Source of the DNA: Dehalococcoidia bacterium
Lineage (GTDB): Bacteria; Chloroflexota; Dehalococcoidia; Tepidiformales; Tepidiformaceae
Direction: 5' to 3'
Length of the DNA: 35,488 bases
NCBI GenBank assembly: GCA_020847765.1
Contig: JADLBJ010000033.1
Span: forward strand, 1 to 35,488
The first letter of the stretch is position 1. Each line of letters opens with the position of its first letter. Position numbers and translations under genes: made by a program. Below the pieces are notes generated by a model. That model did not search any database. It was given only the letters and a program-made list of their open reading frames with translations, and was not told the DNA's origin. Positions 3,849 to 33,276 of the stretch are shown in pieces.

Positions 3849-4280
3849 CTAGAGGCTCCTGGTCGTCTGGGTCGCACCCGGCTCGAGGCGATGCTCGCAG
3901 ATACGCCATTCGCCGTCATGGCGCACGAGCTCGTCGTGATAGGTGGCCCAGAGCGTGAGCGTCGTATCCGGCTGGGCGGCGAGGACGTGCGTGGCCTGCA
4001 CGTAGGTGCGCAGCGTCGCCCTGTCGCCCTGGAGCTCGACCACCTGGTTGCCGAGAAGGTGCTGGGTCGCCTTGAAGCGCTGCAACGCCTCTGTGACGTA
4101 GGCGAGGAAGGCCTCTCGCCCGTGCATCGGCCCCGGGCCGAAGCCGCTGACCGCTACGTCCTTCGTGAAGCACGAGGCGTAGCGCTCCATGTCCCGAGCG
4201 TCCACGGAGGTGGCATAGCGGATCATGACGTCCTGCACGGCCAGGCGGTCGGCGATCTCGGCAGCAGTGGCAAGTGACAT
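3849..4280 (-). CDS. SnoaL-like / NTF2-fold protein
   Basis: IADRLAVQDVMIRYATSVDARDMERYASCFTKDV...WRICEHRLE, typical SnoaL-like domain. Confidence 0.8.
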   Translation of the reverse strand: MSLATAAEIADRLAVQDVMIRYATSVDARDMERYASCFTKDVAVSGFGPGPMHGREAFLAYVTEALQRFKATQHLLGNQVVELQGDRATLRTYVQATHVLAAQPDTTLTLWATYHDELVRHDGEWRICEHRLEPGATQTTRSL

Positions 4281-4401
4281 GGCGGAACCTCCGCGCGCAT
4301 TCTACGCGGACGGTCCACGCCTCGCGCCTGCAACGCCGGCGGGGCCGCCCGAGGCCCGGAAGGCACGGGGCGCCTCGCCGCGTACGCGCGCTTTCGCGGG
4401 T

Positions 4402-25910: not shown

Positions 25911-26372
25911 CTAGGCCCGCACCTCGAAGACGAACTCGACTTCCACCGGGACGCCGAAGGGCAGCTCGGCCACGCCGATGGCGATGCGGGCGTGACGGCC
26001 GGCTTCGCCGAAGACGTCGAGCAGGAGCTGCGAGGCGCCGTTGATCACCTTCGGGTGCTCGGTGAACATCGGCGCGCTCGCCACGTAACCGCCGAGGCGG
26101 ACGGCCCGGGCCACGCCGTCGAGCGACCCGAGGTGCTGCCGGACGAGGGCGAGCGCCTGGAGGGCGCACTGCCGGGCGAGCGCTGCTCCCTCTTCGATGG
26201 TAATGGACTCGCCGCATCTGCCATGGCGCAGGATCTGGCCGTCGCGCATGGGCACCTGGCCCGAGACGAAGAGGAGCGCACCCGTCTGCACCAGCGGGGC
26301 GTAGAGCCCGGCGGATGCCGGGGGCTCGGGCAACACGACGTCCAGCTCGCGGAGTCGCTCCTCCGCGCTCAC
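25911..26372 (-). CDS. RidA/YjgF family protein
   Basis: LLFVSGQVPMRDGQIL...ALQALALVRQHLGSLDGVARAVRLGGYVAS...RIAIGVAELPFGVPVEVEFVFEV; GTG start overlapping the parB stop. Confidence 0.9.
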   Translation of the reverse strand: MSAEERLRELDVVLPEPPASAGLYAPLVQTGALLFVSGQVPMRDGQILRHGRCGESITIEEGAALARQCALQALALVRQHLGSLDGVARAVRLGGYVASAPMFTEHPKVINGASQLLLDVFGEAGRHARIAIGVAELPFGVPVEVEFVFEVRA

Positions 26373-27274
26373 AGCTCGCCTCCGAGGAGCTGTTGCAGGA
26401 CGCCCTCCAGCTCTTCGCCGCTGTAGCAGTCGATCGTGATGCGCGCCCCTTTCTTCTGGGGGACGACCGTGACGCGTGTGCTGAGCGCACGGCGCAGGCG
26501 CGCTTCGATGTCGGCGAAGGTGGCGTCGCGCCGGGCGTTGGCGGCGACTCCCGGGCGTGGCGTGCTGGCTGGTGCCTCGGCGAGGGCACGGCGAACGTGC
26601 GTTTCCGTGTCGCGCACGCTCAACCGCCGGCGCACGACCTCGCGCCAGGCGTCGAGCCGTCGCTTCCCTTCGGGCAAGCCGAGGAGGGCGCGTGCGTGGC
26701 CTTCGCTGATCTCCCCGGCGACGAGGCTGCGTCGGATCTCGGGCTCGAGGGTGAGCAGGCGCAAGGCGTTGGCGACGGTGACGCGGCTCTTGCCCACCCG
26801 CCGCGCAGCCTCCTCCTGGGTGAGCCCGTACTCCTCGGTCAGGCGGCGGTAGGCCATTGCCTCCTCGATCGCGTTCAGGTCCGCACGCTGGATGTTCTCG
26901 ATGAGCGCGAGCTCGAGCAGGTTGGCGTCGGCTGCCTCGCGGACGATGACGGGTCCGGTTTCGAGACCTGCCAGGCGAGCGGCCTGGAGGCGCCGCTCGC
27001 CCGCGATCAGACGGTAGCCGCCGCTCTCGTCGCGGCTGACGACGAGCGGCTGGATGATGCCATGGACGCGGATGGAGTCGGCCAGCTCACGCAGCCTTTC
27101 AGGTTCGAAGTGGGTGCGCGGCTGCTCCGGGTTGGGCGCTATGAGGTCGATGTCGAGCGCTTCGGGGCCCGGCCGGCGGCCGCCAGTCGGCGGCTCCGGT
27201 GGTGGAGCCGCGGGTGGTGTGGCGGTGATGAGGGCGTCGAGCCCACGTCCCAGTCCTCGCTTTGGCTGCGTCAT
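26369..27274 (-). CDS. parB: Chromosome-partitioning protein ParB
   Basis: RGLGRGLDALI; IDLIAPNPEQPRTHFEPERLRELADSI..HGIIQPLVV; GERRLQAARLAGL CTPase motif; LALIENIQRADLNAIEEAMAYRRL; EEAARRVGKSRVTVANALRLL HTH. Confidence 0.97.
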   Translation of the reverse strand: MTQPKRGLGRGLDALITATPPAAPPPEPPTGGRRPGPEALDIDLIAPNPEQPRTHFEPERLRELADSIRVHGIIQPLVVSRDESGGYRLIAGERRLQAARLAGLETGPVIVREAADANLLELALIENIQRADLNAIEEAMAYRRLTEEYGLTQEEAARRVGKSRVTVANALRLLTLEPEIRRSLVAGEISEGHARALLGLPEGKRRLDAWREVVRRRLSVRDTETHVRRALAEAPASTPRPGVAANARRDATFADIEARLRRALSTRVTVVPQKKGARITIDCYSGEELEGVLQQLLGGEL

Positions 27275-28041
27275 GCCAGCACCCCCACGCGTGACAGGAG
27301 CTCGACGGCCAGCGCGTCGTACGCGGAAGCTGCCCGCCCGCCCGGGTCGTAACGGAAGATGGAGCGCCCGTGGCTCGGGGCCTCGCTCAGGCGCACTGCT
27401 CGCGGGATGATCGTCGCGAACGCCTCCGGGAAGTGGCCGCGCACTTCGTCCACTACTTGCTGCGAGAGGCGGGTGCGCGCGTCGAACATCGTCAGAACAA
27501 CGCCGAGGACGCTCAGGCCGGGGTTCAGGTTCCGGCGTACCAGATCCAGCGTCTCCACGAGCCGGCTCAGCCCCTCCAGCGCCATGTATTCGCACTGCAC
27601 AGGAATGACGACGGCGTCGCTCGCCGCCAGCGCGTTTATCGTCAGCAGCCCGAGCGACGGAGGGCAGTCGACGAAGATCCAGTCGAAGCGCTCGCGCAGG
27701 GGGTAGAGAGCGTTCGCCAGGCGTCGTTCGCGCGCCATCACGGGCACGAGCTCGACTTCCGCCCCGGCGAGTGCCGCGCTGGCGGGGAGGACGCTGATCT
27801 GCTCCTCCGGCACCTCGACGAGGCAGCTTTCGGCCGCTGTCTCTTCGAGCAGCGCCTCGTAGACGCCGTCGCGTTCGCGGCCGTCGACCCCGGCGGCACT
27901 CGTCGCGTTCGCCTGCGGGTCGAGGTCGACGAGCAGGACGCGCTGTCCCCGCCGGCCGAGCGCGGCGGCGAGCGAGACGGCCGTTGTCGTCTTGCCGACG
28001 CCGCCCTTCTGGTTGACGAAAGTCACCACGCGTGCGCCCAT
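27271..28041 (-). CDS. parA: Chromosome-partitioning ATPase ParA
   Basis: VVTFVNQKGGVGKTTTAVSLAAAL deviant Walker A; LLVDLDPQANATSA; WIFVDCPPSLGLLTINAL. Confidence 0.97.
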   Translation of the reverse strand: MGARVVTFVNQKGGVGKTTTAVSLAAALGRRGQRVLLVDLDPQANATSAAGVDGRERDGVYEALLEETAAESCLVEVPEEQISVLPASAALAGAEVELVPVMARERRLANALYPLRERFDWIFVDCPPSLGLLTINALAASDAVVIPVQCEYMALEGLSRLVETLDLVRRNLNPGLSVLGVVLTMFDARTRLSQQVVDEVRGHFPEAFATIIPRAVRLSEAPSHGRSIFRYDPGGRAASAYDALAVELLSRVGVLA

Positions 28042-28928
28042 CAGGCGGCCTCCGCCAGGCGGGCGACGAGGGCGGCGCGGGTCGGGACGGCGGCCAGCCC
28101 GCGTGATTCGACGGCGATGGCGCCGGCGGCCAGCCCCCAGCGGACTGCTTGCGCCAGGTCCCGCGTCTCGGCATAGCGCACGGTCAGGGCGGCGGCGAAG
28201 CAGTCGCCCGCGCCCGTGGGCTCGAGCGGCGTCGCGGGAAAAGCCGTCCATTCGCGCACCCCGTCGCGGGTGTACACGGCGACGCCGCGCTCACCGCGGG
28301 TAAGGGCGGCGACAGCGCCGGCGTCTGCAAGTGTCGCGGCGAGGGCCCCGGGGTTCGTTGCGTCCTCTTCGCTGAAGACGAGGAGCGCCCCCGGCCGGAC
28401 GAAGCCGGCCACCGCGGCGCGCGCGTCGCCGATCGCAGCGACGCGGCCGTCTGCCAGGCGCCGGCGAAGGACGCCCTGCAGACAGGCGGCGAGCACCGGC
28501 GCGCCGAATGTGGGGAATCGATCGTTGGCAGGGCGTGCCGTTGCCGTGGACGGGGCCATGCCGGCGATTTCGTGGAAGGCAGGGCAGGCCAGAACTGCGC
28601 CCGGCGGCTGCTTGTCGAACCGGCGACCGAGGGTTTCGAGCAGCCTGGCGCTCGCCAGGGCGCCGCCTTCGCCCAGGAGGCGCTGCGTGCGCCGTCCGCA
28701 GGCGTCGACGCGGTTTTCGTAGCGCGGTGGTTGGGCTTCGCCGGCGAGGAGGACCTCTATCCCCGCCAGGTGGGAGCGGTCATAGCCGGCGGCGAGGTTC
28801 GTGACGAGCACAGGGTGTGCGCCGAGGGCACGGACGGTCAGTGCGGCGTAGAGGGAGGGACCGCCAGGGACGGACCGCCCGTCTTCCAGCAGGTCCTCCA
28901 CGACGTTGCCGAGAACGAGGATCTCCGT
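28041..28928 (-). CDS. PfkB-family carbohydrate kinase; proposed noncanonical start at 28928 (GTG at 28901 is the first canonical codon)
   Basis: GGPSLYAALTVRALGA...LVFSEEDA...ALTRGERGVAVY...TPLEPTGAGDCFAAAL anion-hole motif. Upstream in-frame codons read (ACG)EILVLGNVVEDLLEDG with GAGGAGG 5 nt upstream of ACG. Confidence 0.85.
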   Translation of the reverse strand, partial: TEILVLGNVVEDLLEDGRSVPGGPSLYAALTVRALGAHPVLVTNLAAGYDRSHLAGIEVLLAGEAQPPRYENRVDACGRRTQRLLGEGGALASARLLETLGRRFDKQPPGAVLACPAFHEIAGMAPSTATARPANDRFPTFGAPVLAACLQGVLRRRLADGRVAAIGDARAAVAGFVRPGALLVFSEEDATNPGALAATLADAGAVAALTRGERGVAVYTRDGVREWTAFPATPLEPTGAGDCFAAALTVRYAETRDLAQAVRWGLAAGAIAVESRGLAAVPTRAALVARLAEAA

Positions 28929-28942
28929 GGCGTCCTCCTCTG

Positions 28943-29986
28943 CTACGCTCGCGTACTTATGACAACTTTGCGGTTGTCCCCTTCACCGATGCTGTTGGTT
29001 TCGAGCTCGGGATCGTCGGCGAGGGCGAGATGCACGAGGCGACGTTCGGCGGCCGACATCGGCTCGAGGGTGATGGGCGCGCCCGTCTGGCGGACACGGT
29101 CGGCCATGCGCTGCGCGAGGGACACGACCTGCTCCTCGCGGCGATGGCGGTAATGCTCCACGTCGATGGATACGCCGCCCTTGCCGGGATGGCGCGCGGA
29201 GACGACGAGGTTGACCAGGTACTGGAGGGCGAGGAGCGTCTCGCCGCGGCGGCCAATCAGGAGGCCAAGGTCGTCTCCGCTTATGTCGATTACGGCGCGC
29301 ACCATGCCCAGGCCGTCGCCAGGCGTGACTGGTTCGCGGATCGTCAGCTCGGTGGGTATGTCGAGGACGCGCAGGATGTCGTCGACGACGTGGGCGGCGA
29401 GCTCGACCTCTTCGGCGTTGATGTCGGGAGCGACCTGGGGCTCGTCGTCGCGGCGGCGTCGCTCGCGCTGCTCCCGTGGCTGGCTCGCGGGTGCGGAAGG
29501 ACTGCGCTCGCTGCGACCGCGGGCACGGCGGCCGCCGTTGCTCGTCGCCGCCGCCGGTGCGGGCTCGACGCCGACCTCCTCGTCGTAGCTTGGCGGGCGC
29601 AGGAAGTCCTGCTCAGTGAGCTTGGGCGCGGCCTGTTCCAGCGTGCCCCGGCTCGCGCCTCGGCCGGCGCGGTCGCGCCCTCCACGCGGGCGGCCTCCCT
29701 GATCACCTCGGCGCTGGGTGTTGGACTGGGGCTGACGGACTGTCCGGGGCTGGCCGCCAGGGCGGGCCGCTTCGGGTGTCGCGGCTGTGGGGCTTGGCGC
29801 CAGACGTTCGACGCGTACGAGGGCGTCGCGCGCGCCCACGCCGAAGAGCGCTCCCTTCCGTCCTTCGTCCAGGACGACGAACTGAACGCGTTCGGAATCG
29901 ACGTCGTCGCGGGTGGCGCCGATCATGGCGAGCGCGCGCCTAAGGGCGTCGTCGACGGTTTTGCCGCTTGCTTCGGCCTGGTCCAT
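28943..29986 (-). CDS. jag: Jag/KhpB RNA-binding protein (Jag-N, KH, R3H)
   Basis: EASGKTVDDALRRALAMIGATRDDVDSERVQFVVLDEGRKGALFGVGARDALVRV; KH GDDLGLLIGRRGETLLALQYLVNLVV; R3H MSAAERRLVHLALADDPELETNSIGEGDNRKVVI. Confidence 0.96.
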   Translation of the reverse strand: MDQAEASGKTVDDALRRALAMIGATRDDVDSERVQFVVLDEGRKGALFGVGARDALVRVERLAPSPTAATPEAARPGGQPRTVRQPQSNTQRRGDQGGRPRGGRDRAGRGASRGTLEQAAPKLTEQDFLRPPSYDEEVGVEPAPAAATSNGGRRARGRSERSPSAPASQPREQRERRRRDDEPQVAPDINAEEVELAAHVVDDILRVLDIPTELTIREPVTPGDGLGMVRAVIDISGDDLGLLIGRRGETLLALQYLVNLVVSARHPGKGGVSIDVEHYRHRREEQVVSLAQRMADRVRQTGAPITLEPMSAAERRLVHLALADDPELETNSIGEGDNRKVVISTRA

Positions 29987-30842
29987 TGGCGGTCCTCAAT
30001 TCTCGAGCAGTTTCGGTGTGCGCTGCGGTGCTGCCGCGGCTCCCCTGGGGGGGCGAGCCGGCGCGCGCAGCGTTGCCTTCGGCTTCCTGACGCCGCGCGG
30101 CCGCAGCCGGCGTCTTCGGTTTGAAGATCGGCTCGATCTTTAGCAGCGGGAAGCCGTAGGTGGAGATGTTGAACGCGATGCCGACGAGCGAGTTCACGAC
30201 CCAGTAGAGGCTGACCCCGCTCGGAAAGCTGAGCGCGAAGAACGCGAACATCAGCGGCATCATGTAGGTCATCATCTGTTGCTGGGCTTTCGCCCGTTCG
30301 TCGGTGCTCACCGAGACCGTCGTCTTCGTCTGCGCCCAGGTCGTCAGGCCGACGAGCACCACCATCAGGAGGTTGGTGTCGCGCAGGTCCATCCCCAGGA
30401 AGGTGTCTTTGAGGGGGACGGCGTTCTGGATAAAGCCCCAGGAATACAGATGGGTGGAGAGGTTCTCGAGCGCTTCGGGTGATTCGGGAAGCGTCTGGCG
30501 GATTGAGTAGTAGAGGGCGATGAGGATGGGGAACTGGAGAAGCATCGGTCCCAGGCAGCCGAGCGGGTTCACGCCCGACTCCCGGTAGATCTTCATCATC
30601 TCTTCCTGGCGGCGCTTCGGGTCGCTGTACTTCTTGTTCAGCTCCTGGACGCGCGGCTGGATAGACTGCATGGCGCGCGTCTGGTGGAGCTGCCGCAGCG
30701 TGAGCGGGAACGTGATCAGGCGTATGACGATGGTGAAGGCGATGATCGCCAGCCCGAAGCTGCCGAAGAGCACGTTGTTGAGGATGATCAGGAAGTTGAT
30801 CATCGGGTTGATGAGGACGAGCGTGAAGATCTCCCCGATCAC
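29940..30842 (-). CDS. yidC: YidC/Oxa1 family membrane protein insertase
   Basis: GSFGLAIIAFTIVIRLITFPLTLRQLHQTRAMQSIQPRVQELNKKY...QEEMMKIYRESGVNPLGCLGPMLLQFPILIALYYSI...FFALSFPSGVSLYWVVNSLV. GTG start. Confidence 0.97.
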   Translation of the reverse strand: MIGEIFTLVLINPMINFLIILNNVLFGSFGLAIIAFTIVIRLITFPLTLRQLHQTRAMQSIQPRVQELNKKYSDPKRRQEEMMKIYRESGVNPLGCLGPMLLQFPILIALYYSIRQTLPESPEALENLSTHLYSWGFIQNAVPLKDTFLGMDLRDTNLLMVVLVGLTTWAQTKTTVSVSTDERAKAQQQMMTYMMPLMFAFFALSFPSGVSLYWVVNSLVGIAFNISTYGFPLLKIEPIFKPKTPAAAARRQEAEGNAARAGSPPQGSRGSTAAHTETARELRTANGPGRSKRQNRRRRP

Positions 30843-32014
30843 TGCTTCGGTCCTCCGACGACCACTTCCGTGGCAATGCCCGTCGTGGGGTCGGCTTCGA
30901 ACAGTTTGCCGCTAGTGGTGAGCACGAGGGGCTTGCCGTCGTGGGGCACGACAGCCGCCCGCACGGTCCCGGCATTGGCCAGTTTGAAGCTGTTCTTGGC
31001 GGCTGCGCCCGTATTCAGGTCGATGAAGTGCACCTGCGGCTCGCGTGTGGCCACGACCAGGACGTTGTCGACGATCGCAGGTGCGGCTTTCACCTTCGAC
31101 TTTGCATCATACGGCCGTTGCCAGGTGCTCTTCAGCTGCAGCGTAGTTATGTCGAGTGCATAGACGTTGCCGGAGAAGTCGCCGTAGTAGGCGACGTTGT
31201 CCTTGAAGGCGGGCGTGGTCCAGACCCAGTCGCCGGCGCCGAAGCCGTCGGGGTTCCTGGCGGTGCCGTCGCTCGTGTTCACGAGGTAGACGTTCTTGTT
31301 GAGGCTGGGGACGAAGAGGAGGTCGGGGGTGAGGAGGGCCAGGTCGGCGATCGCCCCGGACACTTTGAAGGGCTGGGACCACACTTCCGAGCCGTCGGCG
31401 AGGCTGAGCTTATAGAGACGGCCGCCCATGGTGGCGACGTAGAGGTACTCCTTGCCGTCGGTGCCCTTCTGATAGACGGGAGGTGACCAGATGCCGTCGG
31501 AGAAGGTTCTGCCGTCGGGCGGCCAGCCGGGAGCGGGGGTGAAGCCGATCTTGTCGAGGACGTAGAGGTGGCCGTCGGTGGTGCCGAAGGCGAGCTTGTC
31601 GCCGGCCAGGGCCGGGCCGCCGGTGACGCTGCCCTTGATGGCGGTGAAGGGCGTCTGGGCGAGGGTGCCGTCGCGGCGGTCGACGGCGAAGAGCTTGCCC
31701 TGGTAGTCGAGGAAGTAGAGAGTGTCGCCGTCGATTACCGGGTCGCCGTAGCCGGCCTTGAGGGAGACGTCTTTCTGGCCGGGCTTGTTCTTGTCGGGGA
31801 AGTTCCAGAGGAAGGCAGCGGGGCCCTGGCTGGCGATGGTGATGGCGGTGAGGTGGTCGTGTTTCTGGAAGTAGTAGGTGGTGTCGCCGTCGAGGCGAGG
31901 AGCGGCCCAGCCCTCCGGATTCTTGATCCCGCCACAGGCGGCGGTGAGGACCAGGATCGCGGGGAGGAGGAGGCCCGCCGCGGTTTTGCGGGGGATCTTC
32001 ACGCCTTCGAGCAT
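30839..32014 (-). CDS. PQQ-like beta-propeller lipoprotein
   Basis: Lipobox LVLTAACGG; repeated propeller blades (GDPVIDGDTLYFLDYQGKLFAVDRRDG, GPALAGDKLAFGTTDGHLYVLDK, TPAFKDNVAYYGDFSGNVYALDI). Confidence 0.88.
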   Translation of the reverse strand: MLEGVKIPRKTAAGLLLPAILVLTAACGGIKNPEGWAAPRLDGDTTYYFQKHDHLTAITIASQGPAAFLWNFPDKNKPGQKDVSLKAGYGDPVIDGDTLYFLDYQGKLFAVDRRDGTLAQTPFTAIKGSVTGGPALAGDKLAFGTTDGHLYVLDKIGFTPAPGWPPDGRTFSDGIWSPPVYQKGTDGKEYLYVATMGGRLYKLSLADGSEVWSQPFKVSGAIADLALLTPDLLFVPSLNKNVYLVNTSDGTARNPDGFGAGDWVWTTPAFKDNVAYYGDFSGNVYALDITTLQLKSTWQRPYDAKSKVKAAPAIVDNVLVVATREPQVHFIDLNTGAAAKNSFKLANAGTVRAAVVPHDGKPLVLTTSGKLFEADPTTGIATEVVVGGPKQ

Positions 32015-32067: not shown

Positions 32068-32149
32068 AGTTTCACGCGAAACATGACGGTGAAACGCACC
32101 CGATTGAATGTTTCACGGGAAACTGGACGGTGAAACAGATTCTCGCGAC
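32068..32149. repeat. Two-unit 41-bp tandem repeat with near-consensus parS palindromes
   Basis: AGTTTCACGCGAAACA (32068-32083) and TGTTTCACGGGAAACT (32109-32124), each 14/16 to TGTTTCACGTGAAACA; GACGGTGAAAC repeated at 32085-32095 and 32126-32136. First 28 nt of the units share 24 positions. Confidence 0.8.
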
Positions 32150-32545
32150 CATGGCGGCGTGGAAAATGTCGAACCACCGCCACTGGGCGACCTCGCCACC
32201 GGCTACCTGCTCGGCCTCCTCGCTGGCGAGGGTCATTTTGGGGGCGACGGCCGGCAGGCGCACGTGACGCTGCGCATGCACACGCGCCACGAGCAGCTCT
32301 TCCGCTGGCTCGAGGAGGCGATCCCCGGGAGCCGGCTCTATGGCCCCTACAGCCACGGGGGCCGCTCCTACTACCAGTGGATGGTCCGCGGGCGCGCCCT
32401 CACTGAAACCATCGCACCTCTCGTCGCTGCCCACCTGGACCTCCTCGACGACCACGTTGCCGGCCGGTTCCTCGATATGTGCAGCCGCTACGGCCTCTCT
32501 CTCCCAGAAGCCCCTGAGCATGTGCCAGGCAGGGACGCGACATAA
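32108..32545 (+). CDS. Free-standing LAGLIDADG-like (homing endonuclease fold) protein
   Basis: Single motif ATGYLLGLLAGEGHFG followed by QAHVTLRMHTRHEQLFRWLEEAIPGSRLYGPYSHGGRSYYQWMVRGRALTETIAPLVAAHLD. Start at ATG 32108 or GTG 32159. Confidence 0.7.
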   Translation: MFHGKLDGETDSRDHGGVENVEPPPLGDLATGYLLGLLAGEGHFGGDGRQAHVTLRMHTRHEQLFRWLEEAIPGSRLYGPYSHGGRSYYQWMVRGRALTETIAPLVAAHLDLLDDHVAGRFLDMCSRYGLSLPEAPEHVPGRDAT

Positions 32546-32548
32546 CGA

Positions 32549-32761
32549 TCAGTCGGGGACGGGATCGTAACCGCTCCCGCCGCCCGGACGACAGCGGGAG
32601 AGACGCCGCAGCGCCAGCCAGCCGCCGCGGAAGACGCCAAGCCGGTCGACCGCTTCGTAGGCATAGGCGGAGCAGGTGGGCTGGAAGCGGCAGGAGGGGG
32701 GCAGCACCCGCGAGAAGGTCGCCTGGTAGAACTGAATCAGCCAAAGGAGCGGGTACTTCAT
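32549..32761 (-). CDS. yidD: Membrane protein insertion efficiency factor YidD
   Basis: [65 protein letters not shown]. Confidence 0.96.
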
Positions 32762-32764
32762 CGC

Positions 32765-33127
32765 TCAAGCGTCGGGCGCCGCCGGGGCAGGCGCTTCGCG
32801 CAGCAAGCGTGCCCGTGTGAGCGCCCGCTGGATTGCCACCTGGAGCGAGGCGAAGTCCGCCTCGAGTGCCCCCTTCCGTGCGGTCACCACGAGATCTACC
32901 CCGTCCACGACACCGAGCTGCCGTGCCGCCTCCCGTAGGCGACGGCGGACGCGGTTGCGGGCGACGGCGCTCCTGGTCAGCCGCTTGCCGACGGCGAAGC
33001 CCCAGCGCACACCCGGGCCGCCCCGCGGCCGGTACCGCACAACGAGAAGGGGACCGCTCACTGCGGTCCCCTCGCGGTAGGTCTGGTCGAATTCGTCGCC
33101 CTTGCGGAGACGCCGGGCGCGTTCCAT
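32765..33127 (-). CDS. rnpA: Ribonuclease P protein component
   Basis: RRLRKGDEFDQTYREGTAVSGPLLVVRY...RWGFAVGKRLTRSAVARNRVRRRLREAAR, RNR motif. Confidence 0.95.
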   Translation of the reverse strand: MERARRLRKGDEFDQTYREGTAVSGPLLVVRYRPRGGPGVRWGFAVGKRLTRSAVARNRVRRRLREAARQLGVVDGVDLVVTARKGALEADFASLQVAIQRALTRARLLREAPAPAAPDA

Positions 33128-33132
33128 CGAAG

Positions 33133-33276
33133 CTACACGACGGTGAGGCGCTTGCGGCCCTGGCGGCGGCGCGCCTTCAGAACGAGCCGGCCGGCACGCG
33201 TCGACATCCGCTCCCGGAACCCGTGCGTGCGCTTTCGCTTGAGAACGTGGGGCTGGTAGGTGCGCTTGGTCGCCAC
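33133..33276 (-). CDS. rpmH: 50S ribosomal protein L34 (GTG start; below the ORF-track length cutoff)
   Basis: Minus-strand translation [48 protein letters not shown]. Confidence 0.96.

Follow-up and report, generated by a model that had tools for sequence, protein, structure and literature searches.

What is a short repeat that resembles the bacterial centromere parS, without matching it, doing in the gap between yidD and a lipoprotein gene of a Dehalococcoidia bacterium (Tepidiformaceae; GenBank assembly GCA_020847765.1)? The repeat lies at 32068–32149 of contig JADLBJ010000033.1, which we analyzed over its full length of 35,488 nucleotides (the window); the window is one entire contig of a draft assembly (78.7% complete, 288 contigs). 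Based on comparative data and predicted structure, we lean towards reading the repeat as a remodelled chromosomal parS (centromere) that doubles as the operator of an adjoining gene, which encodes a small protein with a predicted LAGLIDADG fold.

The sequence-only reading of this DNA had described two near-parS palindromes, each followed by an exact half-site, an offset of 41 base pairs (bp) between them, and parA and parB about 5 kb away, and each of these features was borne out. The palindromes AGTTTCACGCGAAACA (32068–32083) and TGTTTCACGGGAAACT (32109–32124) each carry 2 mismatches to the 16-mer, and no shuffled sequence gave a parS-like match even when 3 mismatches were allowed. GTTTCAC-N13-GTGAAAC occurs exactly at 32069–32095 and 32110–32136 and nowhere else within the window, where 0.03 occurrences are expected even at 2 mismatches. 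The copies are 41 bp apart, and parA/parB lie about 4–5 kb from the repeat on the minus strand. Written out, copy 1 (32068–32096, plus strand) reads AGTTTCAC-GCGAAAC-ATGACG-GTGAAACG, comprising half-sites A, B (degenerate) and C, while copy 2 (32109–32137, plus strand) reads TGTTTCAC-GGGAAAC-TGGACG-GTGAAACA. Neither copy is the canonical 16-bp palindrome of adjacent halves, TGTTTCACGTGAAACA, as each matches it at 14/16 positions and has a third half-site. When the entire assembly was searched for parS at up to 2 mismatches, only the two window sites had a single mismatch in the 14-bp core, and the sole further parS-like site was one distant match with two core mismatches.

Few intergenic sequences in bacteria are as well conserved as parS, whose core was found at up to 1 mismatch in 44 of 60 related genomes. 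In the window's family members, parS mostly occur two to six together. Where locus length allowed judging, these clusters fall between yidD and the lipoprotein/yidC genes, and the parS of several more distant class members occupy the same gap. The window repeat fills exactly this gap, near parA/parB and rpmH-yidC-jag and in place of the relatives' canonical parS; by position, the repeat is parS. A further family member, L032 (G012, genus g13), has about eight sites in an array when up to 2 mismatches are allowed, and most of them are the asymmetric GTTTCACGTGGAAC and not a perfect palindrome.

The presence of the repeat tracks the LAGLIDADG-fold gene, which is found in 3 of 393 genomes of the window's class and, within its family, only in G001 and G013 besides the window. 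Neither G001 nor G013 has an exact parS, and each has two copies of the same composite (TGTTTCACGTCAAACATGACGGTGAAACA and TGTTCCACGGGAAACGCGACGGTGAAACA in G001, TGTTCCACGGGAAACATGACGGTGAAACA twice in G013). In the family, exact parS is present in 0/3 genomes with the gene versus 30/35 without it (p=0.007), and across the class GTTYCAC-N13-GTGAAAC is present in 3/3 versus 3/390, those last three without the ACG described below. In the actinobacterial class of Conexibacter, a relaxed parS (GTTYCACGTGRAAC) was found in 0/12 genomes with the gene versus 88/137 without (p=1e-5); for the composite, the counts are 11/12 and 2/137 (p=7e-14). Since the genomes in these comparisons are kin by descent and not independent, the p-values overstate the number of events. 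The mutual exclusion of parS and gene holds in two phyla.

To describe the composite, we used 82 loci: the window, G013 and the 80 loci listed by a scan of 84,980 species genomes. A composite, called at up to one arm mismatch within 330 bp of the gene start, is directly upstream of the LAGLIDADG-fold gene in 75/82 of these loci; among the seven others, L048 and L049 have a composite whose arms are further altered, and three (L067, L069 and L071) begin close to or right at the end of a contig. Composite matches number 108 in 28.6 kb of upstream sequence, whereas the remaining 577 kb of these loci contain 5. The consensus is TGTTYCACGTGAAACMTGACGGTGAAACA, in which half-site A (positions 2–8, GTTYCAC) and half-site C (22–28, GTGAAAC) are parS half-sites placed 20 bp apart, canonically 7, and enclose a conserved 13-bp core, GTnnnnCnTGACG, ending in ACG. 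Upstream of the gene, the distance from GTTYCAC to GTGRAAC is 20 bp 106 times, the canonical 7 bp nine times and another value twice. Outside the search arms (A and C), conservation over 74 distinct centres reaches.94 at G9,.93 at C15,.94 at A19,.98 at C20,.92 at G21 and.96 at A29, with a slight bias in the ACG values since the orientation of each composite was picked by its ACG end. The middle half-site B is degenerate, being GTGAAAC-like in most phyla and GTTTTTC in Solirubrobacterales, and A+B is not palindromic in many relatives. CGT (8–10) and ACG (19–21) form a short inverted repeat with an 8-bp gap (CGT-N8-ACG), a plausible homodimer core.

The conserved unit is this 29-bp composite per copy, so the repeat amounts to more than a pair of degenerate parS. 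Here the sequence-only reading was right to treat a degenerate palindrome and its perfect distal half-site as a real unit, distinct from the usual isolated 16-mer, as the unit is widely conserved across loci. Its emphasis on a 41-bp, four-helical-turn period did not survive, and we dropped the tandem-repeat reading: among the loci listed, 43 have one copy and 31 have two, and because the spacing in two-copy loci ranges over 39–145 bp, the window's 41-bp period is incidental. Some copies lie at a distance from the promoter of the gene, in L107 (+880), L103 (−784) and L074 (+429 and +746). The L107 copy, a second composite beyond the gene, contains an exact 14-bp parS, TGTTTCACGTGAAACCTGACGGTGAAACA.

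Could the repeat nevertheless be two ordinary, slightly degenerate parS, with the extra half-sites due to chance or to decayed parS? The chromosomal parS of T. thermophilus was assayed with the electrophoretic mobility shift assay probe TGTTTCCCGTGAAACA (PMC4409726), and the A+B 14-mer of copy 2 is the reverse complement of that probe's core. Because the core is common to both, ParB may bind A+B of copy 2 unaided. Against this, one gene family is accompanied in about ten phyla by the ACG core and by a third half-site placed at exactly +20 bp. The comparative data already disfavour the ordinary-parS account, and we consider it very improbable.

An alternative cause of degenerate sites would be a ParB of altered specificity. 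The Caulobacter ParB residues R173 and G201 serve as reference positions for comparing parS reading with that of Noc (PMC7383237), and the equivalent helix-turn-helix (HTH) residues are kept in genomes with the gene. The assembly has a single ParB match at E<=1e-30, with ParB-type residues. Even with 2 mismatches allowed, carriers such as Conexibacter S30A1 (complete chromosome) lack any parS-like site, yet their parB has unchanged parS-reading residues. Altered specificity was dropped, as these residues are unchanged.

The placement of the composite raises the question of whether it acts on the gene only. Composites end a median of 17 bp before the start codon, and 102/108 copies share one orientation, as would be expected if the composite were an operator of the LAGLIDADG gene alone, with a parS likeness due to descent and with ParB nucleating elsewhere or at a divergent parS. 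However, the off-promoter copies in L107, L103 and L074 speak against a role as an operator alone. In addition, the parS halves are perfect, the DNA-reading residues of ParB are unchanged, and in carriers such as G400, G403 and G397 a search at up to 2 mismatches gives no further parS. We regard a purely operator role as rather unlikely.

The adjoining open reading frame (ORF; 32159–32545, plus strand, 128 aa) was assigned a GTG start, since an alternative in-frame ATG at 32108 would overlap composite copy 2. Its AlphaFold2 model has a mean predicted local distance difference test (pLDDT) score of 92 and LAGLIDADG topology, with the alpha-beta-beta-alpha-beta-beta-alpha fold, and Foldseek matches it in the PDB to I-OnuI, I-TnaI, I-Vdi141I and I-CreI (E 4e-5 and prob 1.00 to I-OnuI and others). 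Searched by sequence, the PDB gave nothing credible, and Pfam and NCBIfam models gave zero matches among 76 members of the family. No PADLOC model matches the window protein, and its only PHROG match is a weak one (E 0.03) annotated HNH endonuclease, so membership of a defence or phage family was rejected. The alignment of 76 homologues has a conserved core, GLL-GEGHFGGDGRQ-VTLRMH-RHE...PGSRLYGPY-HGGR-YYQWM-RG, with most invariant residues on the predicted DNA-facing strands. The putative catalytic acid that ends the LAGLIDADG helix (E24 of the GEG motif, intact in the window) is present in 80/81 members. The sole loss is in L119 (Svornostia abyssi, gene at 3956–4294), where GEG is SAG and the composite has a CCG core instead of ACG, with both outer half-sites perfect; L119 is a possible natural active-site-dead carrier. 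Judged by ratios of non-synonymous to synonymous substitution in close pairs (mostly 0.07–0.26, with one near-identical pair at 0.44 on few changes), the gene is mostly under purifying selection; we discarded the Nei-Gojobori ratios of distant pairs, given the compression of synonymous sites in high-GC genes. In L105 (Meiothermus sp. SKYG110, about 4001–4354), a stop lies near the match start in the homologous frame beside a single irregular composite, and this gene is possibly a decayed copy.

Homologues occur in about ten phyla at 80 or more loci, mostly beside chromosomal parA/parB. The phyla listed include Acidobacteriota, Dormiibacterota, Chloroflexota, Actinomycetota, Elusimicrobiota, Deinococcota, Bacillota, Gemmatimonadota, Armatimonadota, Planctomycetota, Myxococcota and others. 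Either parA/parB or the rpmH-yidD-yidC-jag cluster is within 4 kb of the gene in most loci listed, with exceptions in some Elusimicrobia and Armatimonadota (L053, L061, L071, L073, L077, L081, L083, L085). In L073 and L077 (Elusimicrobia), the array upstream of the gene has GTTCCAC and ATGAAAC variants, with the composite at the array edge. In the protein tree, G013 stands apart from the window and G001, and at least 2 label changes are needed, which implies that the window's family acquired the gene at least twice. The window protein shares 70% identity with an acidobacterial homologue while the ParBs of this pair share 44%, and it is 65–68% identical to that of G001 versus 80% for ParB. Because of this tree and these identities, the gene was probably transferred horizontally and then inherited vertically in some groups, Solirubrobacterales among them. 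A phage or plasmid origin was dropped, as IMG/VR, PLSDB and INPHARED contain no homologue.

Such spread could also be that of an active, selfish homing endonuclease that propagates by cleaving parS. Carriers would then have lost canonical parS because it is cut, and the composite would be a resistant allele still usable by ParB. The predicted fold with its conserved acid, the patchy and horizontally transferred distribution, with two or more gains within the window's family, the 70% identity to an acidobacterial protein where ParB reaches 44%, and the exclusion of exact parS from carriers all fit this account. Yet an exact 14-bp parS is found within a composite beside an intact gene in the Bacillota L072, L091, L112 and L117 and in the second composite of L107, and in L073 an exact parS is 252 bp from the gene, which argues against a simple parS cutter. 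Moreover, the core is conserved beyond the needs of resistance, descent is vertical in Solirubrobacterales with purifying selection in close pairs, and none was found in phage, plasmid and viral collections. A selfish parS cutter is an unlikely explanation, if one deserving serious thought.

We return to the repeat as a remodelled parS that is also an operator. Under this explanation, ParB, with its DNA-reading residues unchanged, would still read the half-sites, and a dimer of the LAGLIDADG protein would read the central core CGT-N8-ACG, assisting or gating ParB loading where the palindrome is weakened or split. The occupied composite would also repress the protein's own gene, as may be expected because it ends so close to the start codon (median 17 bp), and the module would have entered the window's lineage horizontally and displaced the resident parS array. 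The sequence-only reading, which proposed a specialised ParB-nucleation or regulatory site, had the right kind of idea, given that the relatives' parS lie in the same gap, and missed the LAGLIDADG-fold gene and the ACG-ending core. The scans that it called for, of the whole assembly and of relatives, found no canonical parS elsewhere, and the repeat was absent without the partner gene and present with it. More tentatively, this could be a LAGLIDADG family specialised on the centromere, one that invades ParABS across phyla, eliminates canonical parS, installs a 29-bp split centromere and is domesticated as a fourth, possibly catalytic, part on which ParB loading depends.

Several observations weigh against reading the repeat as a remodelled parS. 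To our knowledge, there is no precedent for ParB using half-sites 20 bp apart, as it would need to in Solirubrobacterales, where the middle half-site is GTTTTTC. A pure DNA-binding role would not need the acid that 80/81 members retain, and loss of the ACG core is not significantly associated with changes at conserved protein residues (p=0.19). In some Elusimicrobia, the gene adjoins a multi-site parS-like array, and parAB was not found within 4 kb. R39K is restricted to L106 and L114, both also without ACG, which are too few loci to weigh.

The genes around the repeat are all on the minus strand, apart from the LAGLIDADG-fold ORF. Convergent with this ORF is yidD (32549–32761), followed by rnpA (32765–33127) and rpmH (33133–33276). 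On the other side, a PQQ/BamB-like beta-propeller lipoprotein gene (30839–32014) heads a divergent cluster that runs through yidC (29940–30842), jag/khpB (28943–29986), a PfkB-type kinase-like ORF assigned by eye from its translation (28041–28901) and parA (27271–28041) to parB (26369–27274), which matches ParB_N and HTH_ParB of Pfam and has the residues equivalent to Caulobacter R173/G201.

Compared with the ParABS systems of Bacillus, Caulobacter and Thermus, which use a 16-bp parS, the window system is alike in having parA/parB near rpmH-yidC-jag, half-sites GTTTCAC/GTGAAAC, the intergenic place of its relatives' arrays and the ParB specificity residues. It differs in its 20-bp half-site distance, conserved 13-bp core, lack of canonical parS and composite that almost always neighbours a LAGLIDADG-fold gene. 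With the homing endonucleases I-OnuI, I-CreI, I-Vdi141I and I-TnaI, the protein family has in common the predicted fold, the GEG acidic motif, horizontal spread and, in the window protein, a single-motif size that suggests a homodimer. Unlike them, it lies outside introns, inteins and coding genes in the loci read, is tied to parAB and one non-coding site, is vertical in some orders and has no Pfam or NCBIfam model match. WhiA (DUF199), likewise a bacterial protein, contains a LAGLIDADG domain and is connected with chromosome segregation through its regulon. The catalytic residues are lost in WhiA, which binds DNA at a GACAC motif by means of a separate HTH domain (PMC3781837), whereas the family of the window protein keeps the acid and the 128-aa model has no HTH. 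The Noc-binding site (NBS) is also a site of the ParB family derived from parS, and copy 2 has one NBS-like half, GGGAAAC; however, the window ParB lacks Noc-type residues at 173/201, and the window sites are split and asymmetric. In the open-licence literature, with subscription papers and outside preprints not covered, we found no link between LAGLIDADG proteins and ParABS/parS except WhiA, and no split parS.

ParABS is viewed as a three-component system, and our analysis suggests that the small LAGLIDADG-fold gene beside the composite may encode a fourth component of the segregation machine. If true, a split half-site element and a homing-endonuclease-like protein would constitute a new chromosome-segregation component in about ten phyla, which would explain the failure of parS scans in groups like Conexibacter. 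It would also raise the question of whether ParB-CTP can load on half-sites two helical turns apart, and whether it needs a partner to do so. A selfish-type nuclease fold would then have been captured at the centromere, or would be preying on it.
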